Source of the DNA: Candidatus Bathyarchaeota archaeon
GTDB lineage: Archaea > Thermoproteota > Bathyarchaeia > 40CM-2-53-6
Length of the DNA stretch: 7,122 nucleotides
NCBI GenBank assembly: GCA_005888695.1
Contig: VBBH01000088.1
Coordinates: 1 to 7,122, forward strand
Direction: 5' to 3'
Positions within the stretch are counted from its first letter, which is position 1. Each line of letters opens with the position of its first letter. Under the pieces are notes generated by a model. That model saw only the letters and a list, made by a program, of their open reading frames with translations. It did not search any database and had not been told where the DNA came from. A program made the position numbers and the translations under genes. Below are positions 2,196 through 6,385 of the stretch, in pieces.

Positions 2196-2690
2196 CTATT
2201 TCTTCTCTTCTGTCTTCCTACTGGCTGCCTTCGCGGCTTCCAACAGGACCTTCTTCTTCACACCCACGGCTTTCCCACTGCGACCGGTTGTCCTAGTTCT
2301 CTGCCCTCGCACCTTCAAGCCGAGTGAGTGTCGTATTCCTTTCCAAGTTCGAATGTCTTTCATGAAATCGATGTCTGCCTTTTGCCTCAGAACAAGGTCG
2401 GGTCCAACAATGTGCATGTCCCTGCCCGTTTCGAGGTCTTTCCGTCGGTTGAAGAGACGCCCAGGGATCCCGTGCTTACCTGGGTCACGGATTACATCCT
2501 CGATCCGAGAAATCTCCGTCTCGGAGAGACTTCCAGTTCGGGATTCCGGGTTTACTCGGGCTGCCTTTACAACTGCGTATGAGAATGAGGTGCCTACTCC
2601 ACGTATCTTGCCAAGCCCATAAACGACCTTCTTACTGCCGTCTACGTCTGTCCCCACCACACGGACGATATGTCTGAATTCCCTTGACAT
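2196..2690 (-). CDS. rps13: 30S ribosomal protein uS13
   Basis: A 164-residue uS13, the head protein that contacts the P-site tRNA and bridges to the large subunit. Visible family features are FRHIVRVVGTDVDG (5-18), the helix-turn around GLGKIRGVG (26-34), the LSETEISRIEDVI region (55-67), WKGIRHSLGLKVRGQ (116-130) and the basic RTRTTGR motif (131-137). A Lys/Ala-rich tail follows, as in other archaea. I start it at the ATG at 2690, where the conserved SREFRH sequence begins. The frame stays open another 129 codons upstream, but that sequence is not uS13-like. First gene of the uS13-uS4-membrane protein group. Confidence 0.96.
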   Translation of the reverse strand: MSREFRHIVRVVGTDVDGSKKVVYGLGKIRGVGTSFSYAVVKAARVNPESRTGSLSETEISRIEDVIRDPGKHGIPGRLFNRRKDLETGRDMHIVGPDLVLRQKADIDFMKDIRTWKGIRHSLGLKVRGQRTRTTGRSGKAVGVKKKVLLEAAKAASRKTEEKK

Positions 2691-2906
2691 GCTGAAATTG
2701 CTCTTGGAGATTGCAGTGCCTGTCCTCACGCGTTCTTTAACATTTCGACCTTTGACGAGCCTCTTTCTATTGGAAAATAGGAACGTTTCCCAAATGAAAG
2801 GAAAATCTCGTTCTTGATTTCTTTGTCGAACAATTGCGAAGACTTGATCTGGTTTTGAAGAATTTCTCTTGGAAAAACTATCCAGTTTTTTCGGTGAAAA
2901 AGTTCG

Positions 2907-2928
2907 GCCACCGAGATTTTTCGGTGGC
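2907..2928. repeat. 8-bp inverted repeat in the uS13/speD intergenic region
   Basis: GCCACCGA (2907-2914) and TCGGTGGC (2921-2928) are exact reverse complements around a 6-base GATTTT spacer. TTTTTCGGTG, which overlaps the right arm, also occurs 30 bases upstream (2887-2896) as a direct repeat. It may be an RNA hairpin in the uS13 leader or a protein-binding site; nothing decides between them. Confidence 0.5.
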
Positions 2929-2929
2929 G

Positions 2930-2948
2930 AGAGAAGAAATTCTTCTCT
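2930..2948. repeat. Near-perfect 19-bp palindrome, operator-like
   Basis: AGAGAAGAA (2930-2938) and TTCTTCTCT (2940-2948) are perfect reverse complements around one central base. A compact symmetric site with one central base would suit a dimeric regulator. It lies about 45 bases upstream of the speD TATA-like box and inside any long uS13 leader. It follows the 2907-2928 repeat with a gap of one base. Confidence 0.45.
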
Positions 2949-2991
2949 AGAAATTTTGTATCCATCATCTCTAGCTATGATGTAAACAATT

Positions 2992-2999
2992 CTTAAATA
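2992..2999 (+). promoter_or_regulatory. Archaeal TATA-like box of speD (perhaps also used by uS13)
   Basis: CTTAAATA at 2992-2999 resembles the archaeal TATA consensus and would place transcription start near 3020-3025, about 40 bases before the speD ATG. Its complement TATTTAAG is an equally good box reading toward uS13. I see no strong ribosome-binding site close to the speD ATG; CCGGAG at 3038-3043 is about 20 bases away. Confidence 0.45.
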
Positions 3000-3062
3000 C
3001 GCGGCGGGCATGTTTGATCGATCACCGAAAAAAATTCCGGAGAAAGAACACGAGCCGCAGAA

Positions 3063-3485
3063 ATGTTCGGACCACATCTAACACTTGATTTGTCGGAATG
3101 TGACCTTCGAAAGCTCTCCGACCTCTCGCATGTTTACAGCATGCTAGACGAGCTTCCCGACCTAATCTCGATGCACAAGATCAGCCCACCCTACGCTTTT
3201 GTCTACAAGCCAAAGGACAAACCTGAAGAATGGGGCGTAAGCGGGTTCGTCATTATCGCTGAGAGCCATATCAGCATCCACACCTTCCCAGACAAAGGCC
3301 ATGCTTTCATCGACATATTCAGCTGCAAACAATTCGACATTCACAAGGCTATCGCGTACCTCACAACGAAATTCGATGCAGGACACGCCGACAAGAGACT
3401 CTCGGGACGAGGCAAGGAGTACCCGCGAGAGGTCGAGGCCGCGAGAGAGATCGTCGCCCGATCCCGCGTAGCAATCAGCCACTAG
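3063..3485 (+). CDS. speD: S-adenosylmethionine decarboxylase proenzyme (class 1B, pyruvoyl-dependent)
   Basis: 140 residues. The enzyme decarboxylates S-adenosylmethionine to supply aminopropyl groups for polyamine synthesis, using a pyruvoyl group made by self-cleavage. The signature ESHISIHTFP lies at 67-76. Cleavage is expected between Glu67 and Ser68, and Ser68 would become the pyruvoyl group. The processing and catalytic residues are present at the family spacing: His73 is five and Cys88 twenty residues after the serine, as with Ser63/His68/Cys83 of the Thermotoga enzyme. The N-terminal beta chain and C-terminal alpha chain have normal lengths. Some crenarchaeal members of this family are arginine decarboxylases, with specificity reported to lie in the N-terminal part, so arginine as substrate is not excluded. 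Transcribed divergently from uS13; a T-run follows at 3538-3542. Confidence 0.93.
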   Translation: MFGPHLTLDLSECDLRKLSDLSHVYSMLDELPDLISMHKISPPYAFVYKPKDKPEEWGVSGFVIIAESHISIHTFPDKGHAFIDIFSCKQFDIHKAIAYLTTKFDAGHADKRLSGRGKEYPREVEAAREIVARSRVAISH

Positions 3486-3542: not shown

Positions 3543-3673
3543 CCACTAAAAGTCAGAAGGACAGCTGTTCTATCGTTTGAGATCAATCACAGGTTGCAGA
3601 GCCCAAAGTAGGAAATAGTTCCTCAAGAGTTCGTTCTGACTGTGCCGGGATTCCGGAGTCTGGTACCGGGCAG

Positions 3674-3705
3674 TCCAGCTGATTAGCGATGATGGTTGGG
3701 CCCTT
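3674..3705 (+). other. Non-canonical tRNA intron 1 (32 nt, between positions 29 and 30)
   Basis: The junctions fit the bulge-helix-bulge motif cut by the archaeal splicing endonuclease. GGGC (3668-3671) pairs with GCCC (3700-3703) as the central 4-bp helix. It is flanked by 3-base bulges AG|T (3672-3674) and TT|G (3704-3706), each cut after its second base. An inner helix CCAGCT (3675-3680) with GGTTGG (3694-3699), two pairs being G-U, closes a 13-base loop. An outer helix is not evident, which is common for non-canonical sites. Removal is needed to build the 5' anticodon strand CAG|GC. Confidence 0.8.
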
Positions 3706-3713
3706 GCCTGGAA

Positions 3714-3747
3714 CCGTTAGCTCAACAGGAGAAGTACCAGGACAGAT
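3714..3747 (+). other. Canonical-position tRNA intron 2 (34 nt, between 37 and 38)
   Basis: This sits at the usual archaeal position one base 3' of the anticodon. Bulges would be AA|C (3712-3714) and AT|A (3746-3748), with the spliced anticodon stem as outer helix. The central helix is imperfect: CTG (3708-3710) pairs with CAG (3743-3745), but the fourth pair is G3711/A3742, and the inner helix is weak. An alternative perfect pairing CCTGG/CCAGG (3707-3711 with 3737-3741) exists but would leave an 8-base bulge. The boundaries are therefore set mainly by the perfect anticodon stem they produce. Confidence 0.65.
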
Positions 3748-3897
3748 AGCCTGTGCCCCTTTGGGGCGCGTGGGTTCGAATCCCACTCCCGGCGCCACCC
3801 ACTCTATCACACTTCTGAGGCTCAAGCTGATGCGTTCCCGAGAACGTCACTATTCGCACATTTCTTGCAAGGTCAACCCTTCCTCAACTGGACTCAC

Positions 3898-4248: not shown

Positions 4249-5127
4249 TTGGATCGGTGTCGTGTCTGCGGCGCGGAGGAGTTCATCCCTTACGTCTGCA
4301 GGTACTGCGGTGGCACTCACTGTGTTCTACACCGTCTCCCTGAGAATCATGAATGTCCCAATATTCAACAGGCTCGCGCGCCACGGCCCTACGTTCGAAC
4401 TGAGCGCAAGGGTGCGATGTTGACGATCCGTCCCTTGGGTGTTGGTGTCCCACGATTGGCAAAATTCTCATCAATCTCAAGAAGAGAACTGTACTCTCTT
4501 CTGGTCGCTTGGGTAGTTCTCGGAATCAGTTTCTCGGTCCGGTACATTTTTCGTAGTGATGTGAGCCAGCTTGATCTTGTTCTGATCTTCTTACTGACTC
4601 TTGTCTTGGTTGGGAGTGGGTTTCTCGGACACGAATTGGCCCACAAGTTCGCCGCGGAGAGGTACGGCTGCTGGGCTGAATTCAAGCTCTGGACTTATGG
4701 TGCCATGATGGCACTCTTGTTCGCGATTGTCTCCCAAGGTAGCTTAGTGTTCGCCGCGCCGGGAGCCGTCTATATCGCCTCTAGGGCAGGCTACTTCGGC
4801 GAGAGACTTGATAGGAAGTCGAACGGAATCGTTTCGGTCATGGGCCCCCTAGTGAATATTGCTGCGGCTCTTGTCTTCTCGGTGGCTCTCTTCGGGACGA
4901 GGTTGCTTGGCTTTCCAGACCTCGTGATTCCAACGCATGACCCAGGAGGTTTCAGGTTCCTTTGGTCAGGCGTGGTGTTGAATCTTTGGTTAGGAGCTTT
5001 CAACATGCTGCCGATCGTCATTCTGGATGGACAGAAGGTTTTCTCATGGGACAAGAAAATATGGGCACTAGTCACGATTCCACTCTGGTTAGCAGCTCTC
5101 TTGGCTCTCTCAGGGTTCCTTGGCTAA
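4249..5127 (+). CDS. AN1 zinc finger fused to a site-2 protease family (M50) membrane protein
   Basis: 292 residues. Residues 4-36 form a complete AN1-type zinc finger: C4-x2-C7-x9-C17-x2-C20-x4-C25-x2-H28-x5-H34-x-C36. A basic linker follows, then a membrane domain with hydrophobic segments near 81-100, 107-127, 150-172, 194-216, 236-256 and 270-290. The M50 zinc-protease motif is GHELAHK with H128, E129 and H132. The second motif is N252-x2-P255 with LDG at 259-261, where the aspartate would be the third metal ligand. Site-2 proteases cut substrates within membranes; the substrate here is unknown. An in-frame TAG directly precedes TTG 4249, and the next ATG would delete the whole zinc finger, so TTG is the start. 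The gene stands alone, convergent with the small zinc-ribbon gene ending at 5149. Confidence 0.88.
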   Translation: MDRCRVCGAEEFIPYVCRYCGGTHCVLHRLPENHECPNIQQARAPRPYVRTERKGAMLTIRPLGVGVPRLAKFSSISRRELYSLLVAWVVLGISFSVRYIFRSDVSQLDLVLIFLLTLVLVGSGFLGHELAHKFAAERYGCWAEFKLWTYGAMMALLFAIVSQGSLVFAAPGAVYIASRAGYFGERLDRKSNGIVSVMGPLVNIAAALVFSVALFGTRLLGFPDLVIPTHDPGGFRFLWSGVVLNLWLGAFNMLPIVILDGQKVFSWDKKIWALVTIPLWLAALLALSGFLG

Positions 5128-5306: not shown

Positions 5307-6385
5307 CTAGGCGGCTCCCTGAACCGGCTCTTGCGGAACGGTTTGTGAGGAATGACTTGTCTTGGACTTCCACAGACGTGGATAGGTGTCTGCTGGCATT
5401 ACTACCCTCACGGTCTTCGCCGCCAAACCCTTCTCCTTGCTCATGATGTCTTCCGAGGTCAAAAGTGCCCTTGCTAGAGCGACTAGTTCGCCTTTCAGAG
5501 TGAAGAGTGCCACCGGAGATTTGACTTTTATCCCATCGGTAAGTCTGACGATTCCTGGAATCGCTAGGTCCGCACCGTGGCAGATCGCGTTAACCGCGGA
5601 GTCTCGTATGAAGATCTTCTGCACGTATACGAACGCCGACTCCATAGGCTGGATGATTTTTCTTACAAGTTCCTCCCTCTTCTCTTGCGATTCTGCTTGT
5701 GATATCTCTAGAATGTCGTATAGATTGTAGATTGTTTCTTCTGTGAAAGGCCCGGCACGTGTTCTGCGCAGTTCTCGCATATGAGCTCCCACGCCGAGAA
5801 TATCGCCAATATCACTCACGAGTTTTCGAATATACGTTCCGGCTTGACAGCCTACTCTGAAGAGCACCAGCCGATCGTTTATCTCAACGTCTTTGATGTA
5901 ATAGATCCGTCTCTTCCTCACTTCTCTCTTCACGGCTGCCCTCAAAGGAGGTTTCTGATAGATCTCCCCGACGAATTCCTCCATCACGGATAGTAGTTTA
6001 GTGGTGGGAACGGAGTCGTGGAGAGTCATGAGGCACACGTACTCTTTCCCGGTGAGTAGGAACACTTGGATAATCTTGGTCGCATCTTCCAGTGCCAGGG
6101 GCAGTACGCCAGTGACCATTGGGTTTCTCCAGCCTGAAGACAGGCTTCTAGAGTCCCACCATGGCCCGCGTGTTTCAGCCCCAGCATCTTCTCCACCCAT
6201 GCAACCACTTCATGGCTCGACGGACCCGACGGCTTATCGAGGTTGATCAAGCCAAAGCGAACGTGTTGGTCGAGAGAACGCTTTTCCGGGATACATCCGA
6301 AGGATGGATCAGTCTCCTCTTGTATCTTGTCCAATATGCTCTGTTCCCGCTCCCAGGGAGCTTTCTCCCGTGGGATTAGTGACAA
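5307..6385 (-). CDS. cbf5: H/ACA RNP pseudouridine synthase Cbf5 (TruB family), gene with an intron
   Basis: Catalytic subunit of archaeal H/ACA ribonucleoproteins, converting uridine to pseudouridine in rRNA; it can also act on tRNA. Two minus-strand exons, 6385-6148 and 6124-5307, join into a 351-residue protein. Residues 44-62 ([19 protein letters not shown]) are TruB motif [20 protein letters not shown] (72-90) is motif II with catalytic Asp80, whose codon G|AC is split by the intron. The middle holds [21 protein letters not shown] and [17 protein letters not shown] domain follows (about 255-330, with [11 protein letters not shown] and [10 protein letters not shown]). Without splicing the frame ends after 119 codons and lacks the catalytic residue. 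The start at TTG 6385 is uncertain; an in-frame CTG at 6418 sits 6 bases after a perfect GGAGGT. Follows eL14 as in many archaea. Confidence 0.93.
6125..6147 (-). other. 23-nt archaeal pre-mRNA intron in cbf5
   Basis: Read on the minus strand, the junctions form a bulge-helix-bulge. The central helix is CTCT (exon 1) with GGAG (intron, one G-U pair). The 3-base bulges are AG|A and AA|A, each cut after its second base. The inner stem is AGCCT/AGGCT with a 6-base loop. An outer helix TGGG/CCCA lies in the exons, with one extra A on the 5' strand. Removing 23 bases restores both the frame and the invariant GGTLDP motif. One-base slips give the same mature mRNA because A's flank both junctions. 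Introns in cbf5 cut by the tRNA endonuclease are known from several Crenarchaeota. Confidence 0.9.

Follow-up and report, generated by a model that had tools for sequence, protein, structure and literature searches.

A conserved two-intron tRNA-Ser(GGA) gene and its intron-rich setting in an order of Bathyarchaeia

We analyzed a stretch of 7,122 nucleotides from a Bathyarchaeota archaeon (the window) and find that positions 3644..3797 of its forward strand are a real, conserved tRNA-Ser(GGA) gene with two introns, an example of a known archaeal arrangement. What we observe directly is the structure of the gene, its exon junctions, their conservation, and the presence of two endonuclease-family genes in the closest genome. 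From these we conclude with high confidence that the locus is a functional, single-locus tRNA-Ser(GGA) gene whose transcript would be spliced at two bulge-helix-bulge (BHB)-type sites, by a crenarchaeal-type (alpha-beta)2 endonuclease, to an 85-nt tRNA.

Gene structure and detection

The gene (3644..3797, +), recognized by reading of the sequence, by our own parser and by ARAGORN on the joined exons, has a GCCGGGA/TCCCGGC acceptor stem, a four-pair D stem, a long variable arm, a T arm, a discriminator G, and a CCA encoded at 3795-3797. Exon 1 (3644..3673, +) corresponds, in the parse and in the orthologue alignment, to tRNA positions 1-29, and supplies the 5' strand of the acceptor, the D arm, and positions 26-29. 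It is followed by a 32-nt intron at 29/30 (intron 1, 3674..3705, +), placed by the parser and by orthologues, one of which (from genome G027) is without an intron at exactly the same junction. The parser then places the 8-nt exon 2 (3706..3713, +; positions 30-37, with the GGA anticodon at 3710-3712) and a 34-nt intron at the canonical 37/38 position (intron 2, 3714..3747, +), where 35/35 of the orthologues found also have an intron. Exon 3 (3748..3797, +), delimited by orthologue comparison, runs from position 38 to the CCA and comprises the 3' strand of the anticodon stem, the long variable arm, the T arm and the acceptor. Joined, the three exons form an 85-nt class II tRNA plus CCA with a CAGGC/GCCTG anticodon stem and a CTGGAAA loop, matching in each of these respects what an earlier note on this DNA had described, and ARAGORN in its default mode agrees with that note in reading the product as tRNA-Ser(gga). 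A split or trans-spliced tRNA is ruled out by the contiguity of all exons within 154 bases, and a check by hand shows that intron 2 of the window cannot slide by one base, since intron and exon begin with different letters. Upstream, at 3604..3619 (+), we see by eye a box A/BRE-like element, CAAAGTAGGAAATAGT, which resembles CAAAGGGGAAAATAGT in close relatives and may have a promoter role; by eye it is not evident in other members of the order.

Our parser removes introns with a 3-4-3 BHB, up to two for the window, and scores the product as a tRNA. Among the parses allowed by the BHB rule, removal of 3674-3705 and 3714-3747 scores highest (38.6, with the runner-up at 29.3), so that a multi-intron prediction ranks the parse proposed in the earlier note first. 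The expectation that default scans would miss or mistype the gene is also borne out. Neither ARAGORN on the whole window nor Rfam at E<=1 returns a tRNA, and the Rfam matches near the T arm, both sub-threshold, are to the T arm of tmRNA (18 nt) and, on the opposite strand, to a plastid element. ARAGORN's default mode finds nothing in the intact gene, and with the intron option the program reports tRNA-Gly(acc) for the intact gene and tRNA-His for the joined exons; with either intron alone removed, both modes return Ser(gga). According to the text available of its paper, tRNAscan-SE 2.0 strips introns iteratively (PMC8450103), and it may for this reason find the gene.

The two introns differ in how far they stand out from chance. 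The BHB score of intron 1 is reached by 0/20,000 shuffles of its own letters, and that of intron 2 by 813/20,000, which is weak alone and modestly above chance; the case for intron 2 therefore comes from comparison and from the spliced product rather than from its own motif. When the middle of the gene was shuffled in 400 trials, the highest parse score was 32.3, and when both introns were shuffled, again in 400 trials, the free parse hit 38.6 once and regained the same joined exons 4 times. ViennaRNA pair probabilities, computed for four splicing states at 37 and 20 C, were dropped as evidence because the joined exons give no cloverleaf either: the mean probabilities of the BHB cores in the precursor are 0.05 and 0.02, with neither core predicted, and in the joined exons those of the D stem and anticodon stem are 0.29 and about 0.2. 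Orthologue comparison, in which both introns recur in 34/35 orthologues, is far stronger support than the shuffles.

Orthologues and the anatomy of the two sites

The nearest named record is VBBA01000115 (L001, Bathyarchaeota MAG BA_6), which encodes a SAM decarboxylase protein identical to the window's and a tRNA gene differing from the window's at 3/154 bases. A single one of these changes falls within the intron 1 helix, where G at 3678 becomes A and turns a G-U pair into A-U. We let the genome of this record (G001), of soil origin according to its sample name, stand in for the genome of the window.

Across the order to which genome G003 belongs, tRNA-Ser(GGA) is found in 35/38 genomes, and was not found in G021, G035 and G037. 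The 35 orthologues comprise 32 relatives among 60 fetched stretches, together with those of G003 (L124), G001, and G029 (L249, identified by eye). The program parsed 27 of the 32 relatives; in the other five (L190, L191, L204, L217, L230) our parser favored another parse, and they were recognized instead by motifs in the exons, which fix the junctions. In 34/35 orthologues both introns lie at the same two exon junctions, and intron sequences are very different. The exception, G027 (L218), reads CAG|GCCTGGAG, with intron 1 exactly missing, and thus provides a natural empty site. Among the 33 aligned sequences (the window and the 32 relatives), intron 1 is 14-32 nt and intron 2 is 11-34 nt long where present, and mean identity to the window is 90% for exons (n=32), 48% for intron 1 (n=31), and 30% for intron 2 (n=32). 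Conserved exons, variable introns, and the empty site in G027 therefore fix the junctions, upholding both introns as they were first placed. A genome of another order, G223 (L247 / L289), has a tRNA-Ser(GGA) without intron 1, with a 37/38 intron, and with a further predicted intron in the variable arm; no copy without intron 2 was found among the 35 orthologues and G223.

When 256 genomes of the class were searched with an exon pattern spanning the 29/30 region and allowing a gap of 0-30 nt, 35 gave a match, one each: 33 within the order, plus G223 and G110. The G110 match was rejected on reading as not tRNA-like. The pattern is strict on exon letters, and the lack of a match elsewhere does not show that other orders are without such an intron. 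A second Ser(GGA) copy was not seen with this pattern, which occurs singly in 33/35 orthologue-bearing genomes and is blind to G001 (32-nt intron), to G028 (exon letters differ), and to diverged exons. For G001, which looks incomplete (19 T-arm+CCA matches vs 40 in G003), there was no second Ser(GGA) among the BLAST matches listed.

The BHB of intron 1 pairs GGGC at 3668..3671 (+; positions 24-27) with GCCC at 3700..3703 (+), with bulges at 3672-3674 and 3704-3706; all 4/4 pairs of this central helix form in the window, and the 3-4-3 core is as the earlier note gave it. Seven pairs of inner helix follow inward from 3675/3699 (3675..3699, +), as placed by the parser and pair counts, and there is no outer helix. 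With a 4/4 central helix and 0/20,000 shuffles reaching its score, intron 1 falls among BHB/relaxed BHB introns (hBH, HBh'). For the family, BHB counts cover the window and the 32 relatives and leave out G003, G001 and G029. The central helix of intron 1 has 4/4 pairs in 30/32 intron-1 copies and 3/4 in 2, and the intron ends are of GCCC/GCCT type. Inner pairs 1-3 of intron 1 are standard in 76/83 cases across 28 distinct introns, where dealing the partners anew gives a mean of 58.6 and 0/2000 deals reach the observed count; this control does not keep relatedness, and its figures are not probabilities. Inner pair 3 occurs as AT, CG and GC, and the inner helix of intron 1 is kept through compensating changes.

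Intron 2 has a less regular site. Its central helix sets CTGG at 3708..3711 (+; positions 32-35) against ACAG at 3742-3745, with 3/4 pairs and the G35/A mismatch that had been noticed before at this 37/38 intron. Once intron 1 is removed, the window copy has an outer helix of 6 pairs, the 3/4 central helix, and 1 inner pair. This central helix is imperfect in 33/33 aligned sequences, with U33 unpaired in 28/33, and inner pairs 1-3 are standard in 37/55 cases (dealt-anew mean 24.1, 0/2000 reach, under the same control). Both junctions agree with cleavage between the second and third bulge base on each strand, at what would be the predicted sites.

The 29/30 position had been singled out as unusual but is less so than supposed: it is among the documented archaeal tRNA intron positions in the published list (PMC4090602, as available in part), and it recurs among our own predictions, in Ser(TGA), Leu(TAG) and Gln(CTG) of G003, Leu(GAG) and Gly(TCC) of G223, and Gly(CCC) of G087. 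In the same source, multi-intron tRNAs of Thermoproteales, such as tRNA-Pro(UGG) of Pyrobaculum islandicum, likewise combine a canonical 37/38 intron with non-canonical ones at BHB or relaxed BHB sites. Here, in contrast, the host belongs to Bathyarchaeia, the combination is 29/30 with 37/38 in tRNA-Ser(GGA), shared by 34/35 orthologues of one order, and no aligned copy has a perfect 37/38 central helix. The split tRNA-Ala(CGC/UGC) of Caldivirga maquilingensis is disrupted at the same 29/30 position and undergoes the same kind of splicing, but its split genes are joined in trans (PMC4090602, same text), whereas the gene described here is contiguous.

The splicing endonuclease and the order of the cuts

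Two tRNA_int_endo proteins are encoded in each of G001, G002 and G003. The first protein of G001 aligns with EndA of A. pernix (3p1z_B) at E 4.5e-43 over residues 13-193 of 194, across the stretches GADFAVY, IDHAPF and VRKQF, which we take to be the catalytic Tyr, His and Lys stretches of EndA. Counted from the alignment, it has a Lys opposite A. pernix residue 44, presumably the specificity-loop Lys. The second protein matches Methanopyrus EndA best (5x89, E 4.1e-23), better in the second half of the chain, and has Phe for the catalytic Tyr and no matching His, as would a non-catalytic subunit. The closest genome thus appears to encode a crenarchaeal-type endonuclease pair, as expected of an (alpha-beta)2 enzyme. 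The available text of PMC6379350 reports that only (alpha-beta)2 and epsilon2 EndA efficiently remove relaxed-BHB introns, and that the loop Lys is needed.

From these sequences we infer that the locus is transcribed, that the subunits assemble, and that the RNA is cut and rejoined, along with any order in which the two cuts might be made. In the model that we favor, one transcript would be cut at two BHB-type sites by an (alpha-beta)2 splicing endonuclease, and the three exons would be ligated into an 85-nt class II tRNA. Intron 1 would present all of its central helix, built in part from D-stem bases 24-25, together with an inner helix and no outer helix (the HBh' kind), and intron 2 would present a flawed central helix with a strong outer helix, the anticodon stem.

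That the locus is instead a decaying pseudogene or a chance parse, a reading to which the silence of default scanners lends itself, we consider extremely improbable, given its conserved exons, its variable introns with compensating changes, the gene's presence in 35/38 genomes of the order, and the failure of middle-shuffled genes to reach 33 in 400 trials. A further question is whether splicing is strictly ordered, with intron 1 removed first since the full anticodon stem, the outer helix of intron 2, exists only afterwards. The earlier note had proposed ordered splicing, and for the window copy the idea is plausible: 3/5 pairs of intron 2's outer helix survive while intron 1 is in place, and intron 2, whose central helix is flawed in 33/33 sequences, would lean on that outer helix. 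The tRNAscan-SE authors, in the available text, likewise describe close introns of which one must go first (PMC8450103). The window copy is among the three weakest: 5/5 outer pairs are possible with intron 1 still there in 12/32 copies, 4/5 in 17 and 3/5 in 3. With 4 or 5 of 5 pairs in 29/32 copies, order is not a general requirement, because the last three bases of intron 1 can replace positions 27-29 in the outer helix, and we reject strict order as a family rule; as an account of splicing here it strikes us as rather unlikely.

The empty site bears on the same question. That G027 retains intron 2 and lacks intron 1 would be compatible with a half-spliced intermediate having been reverse-transcribed, but could also be a plain deletion. 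In an unrooted Cbf5 tree from which G029 is missing, G027 is sister, with support 0.995, to G028, whose tRNA gene has the two introns and whose cbf5 has the intron described below. Unless the root lies on its own branch, G027 would have lost intron 1 and the cbf5 intron and kept intron 2, losses that fit, and do not prove, an intermediate from which intron 1 went first. A different dependence on intron 1 could arise if the 3' part of intron 2 and the 3' exon formed a hairpin masking the 3' site of intron 2 until intron 1 is gone. Complementarity seen by eye, GGCT..AGCC in many relatives and CAGG..CCTG in the window, is consistent with this, but ordinary pairing with exon 2 may account for the motif, and we think such masking quite improbable.

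Intron load of the lineage and the cbf5 intron

The gene sits in a lineage whose tRNA genes, in the genomes counted, are heavily interrupted. In G003 (L119-L152), 40 T-arm+CCA matches became 34 fetched loci after six un-tRNA-like matches were dropped, and 32 after a T-stem check that removed L136 and L142. We counted only confident strict parses, leaving out 6/32 loci in G003, 4/14 in G001, 6/24 in G223, and 1/16 in G087 (L323, with no acceptor match). G003 then has 26/32 genes confidently parsed, with 56 introns, 25/26 genes interrupted, and 11 genes with three introns. The corresponding figures are 10/14, 20 introns and 10/10 interrupted for G001; 18/24, 33 introns and 18/18 interrupted for G223 (30/31 pattern matches as loci); and 15/16, 8 introns and 5/15 interrupted for G087, which lies elsewhere in the class (30/35 matches as loci). 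Distinct junctions number 56 in G003, 19 in G001, 30 in G223 and 8 in G087, and in three genes (one in G001, two in G223) more than one intron was called at one junction, which may be single longer introns. Together, G003, G001 and G223 have 53/54 confident tRNA genes interrupted, often by two or three introns, and G087 is mostly intronless, showing that intronless genes are not given introns by the parser. For all 69 confident products, ARAGORN in default mode returns the same anticodon. The strict 3-4-3 rule fails for some genes, and a relaxed version of the parser improved a few parses. Introns at 37/38 with a central mismatch are found in 7/14 cases in G003 and 4/8 in G001 (both including Ser(GGA)), 3/11 in G223 and 1/3 in G087. 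Two tRNA-Met(CAT) genes of G001 (L083, L084), almost identical and interrupted in the same way, lie on different contigs, perhaps as an assembly duplicate.

The same kind of intron interrupts a neighboring protein gene. In the window, cbf5 (5307-6385) is broken into two frames, and removal of a 23-nt BHB intron at 6125..6147 (-) restores one frame, yielding GHGGTLDPMVTGVLP; this removal is the top-scoring frame-restoring BHB, tied with one that deletes more protein. The intron lies within the catalytic Asp codon (G|AC), between a 3' exon at 5307..6124 (-), placed by profile match and frame restoration, and a 5' exon at 6148..6385 (-), placed by frame restoration and with a tentative start codon. 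In 29/32 sequences (the window, L001, and 30 other genomes) this codon holds such an intron, 17-23 nt long; across these 32 it is absent from G027, with G024 and G022 as two unsettled cases. Among five further genomes of the class, cbf5 is interrupted at the same point in G223, G130 and G180, G087 is without the interruption, and G060 has no full match. The crenarchaeal cbf5 pre-mRNA intron lies at the same place, just after the first letter of the catalytic Asp codon, and was reported in 2009 only from Desulfurococcales and Sulfolobales, in the text available (PMC2738675); the window's host, in Bathyarchaeia, is outside those two orders. In 32/35 genomes cbf5 is less than 2 kb from tRNA-Ser(GGA) on the same contig, the exceptions being G008, with only a cbf5 fragment there, and G027 and G034, with the genes on different contigs. 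G027 (L218, L251) thus combines three features: it is the only one in the order in which the 29/30 intron was found missing, its cbf5 has no intron, and tRNA-Ser(GGA) and cbf5 lie on separate contigs.

Two other window genes deserve comment. The S13 ORF at 2196-3077 (-) is much longer than its family, and 2196-2684 suffices to cover almost all of the S13 profile, so the true start is probably downstream of the one listed. The product of 4249-5127 (+), which had no NCBIfam match, looks by eye like a membrane metalloprotease with an N-terminal zinc-finger-like stretch.

Pyrobaculum calidifontis, with 71 introns in 46 tRNA genes, or about 1.5 per gene, has the most among the complete genomes assessed in the available text of PMC8450103. 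G003 has 2.15 introns per gene in its resolved subset of 26 genes, a figure from a census made with our own parser on incomplete genomes, limited to CCA-bearing genes whose T loop fits the consensus and to two genomes of the order. We lean towards a joint reading in which the order has the densest tRNA intron load described, with about two introns per gene and nearly all genes interrupted, above P. calidifontis; its enzyme routinely accepts 37/38 sites with a broken helix; and the cbf5 mRNA uses the same system. We word the density reading with caution since habitat comes from sample names only, those of the named members being mostly soil-depth samples, and since the census covers two genomes of the order. 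In the open-licence PMC literature on tRNA introns in Bathyarchaeota/Bathyarchaeia, the mention in the available text of PMC7714728 is a footnote on the TACK group, and PMC12918454, which also matches these terms, concerns rRNA circularization in the part available.

Taken alone, the gene adds one well-supported multi-intron tRNA, and its setting in an intron-rich lineage matters more. Default scans miss or mistype tRNA genes in this lineage, and cbf5 reads as two ORFs, which can lead to wrong estimates of completeness and codon capacity and to faulty annotation. With dozens of related two-intron precursors, the lineage offers material on splicing order and on the minimal requirements of the BHB. 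It also lets one ask, with a soil origin taken from sample names, whether intron-rich tRNA sets need a hot habitat; if the reading of a densest load is true, intron-rich tRNA sets would not be peculiar to hyperthermophiles.
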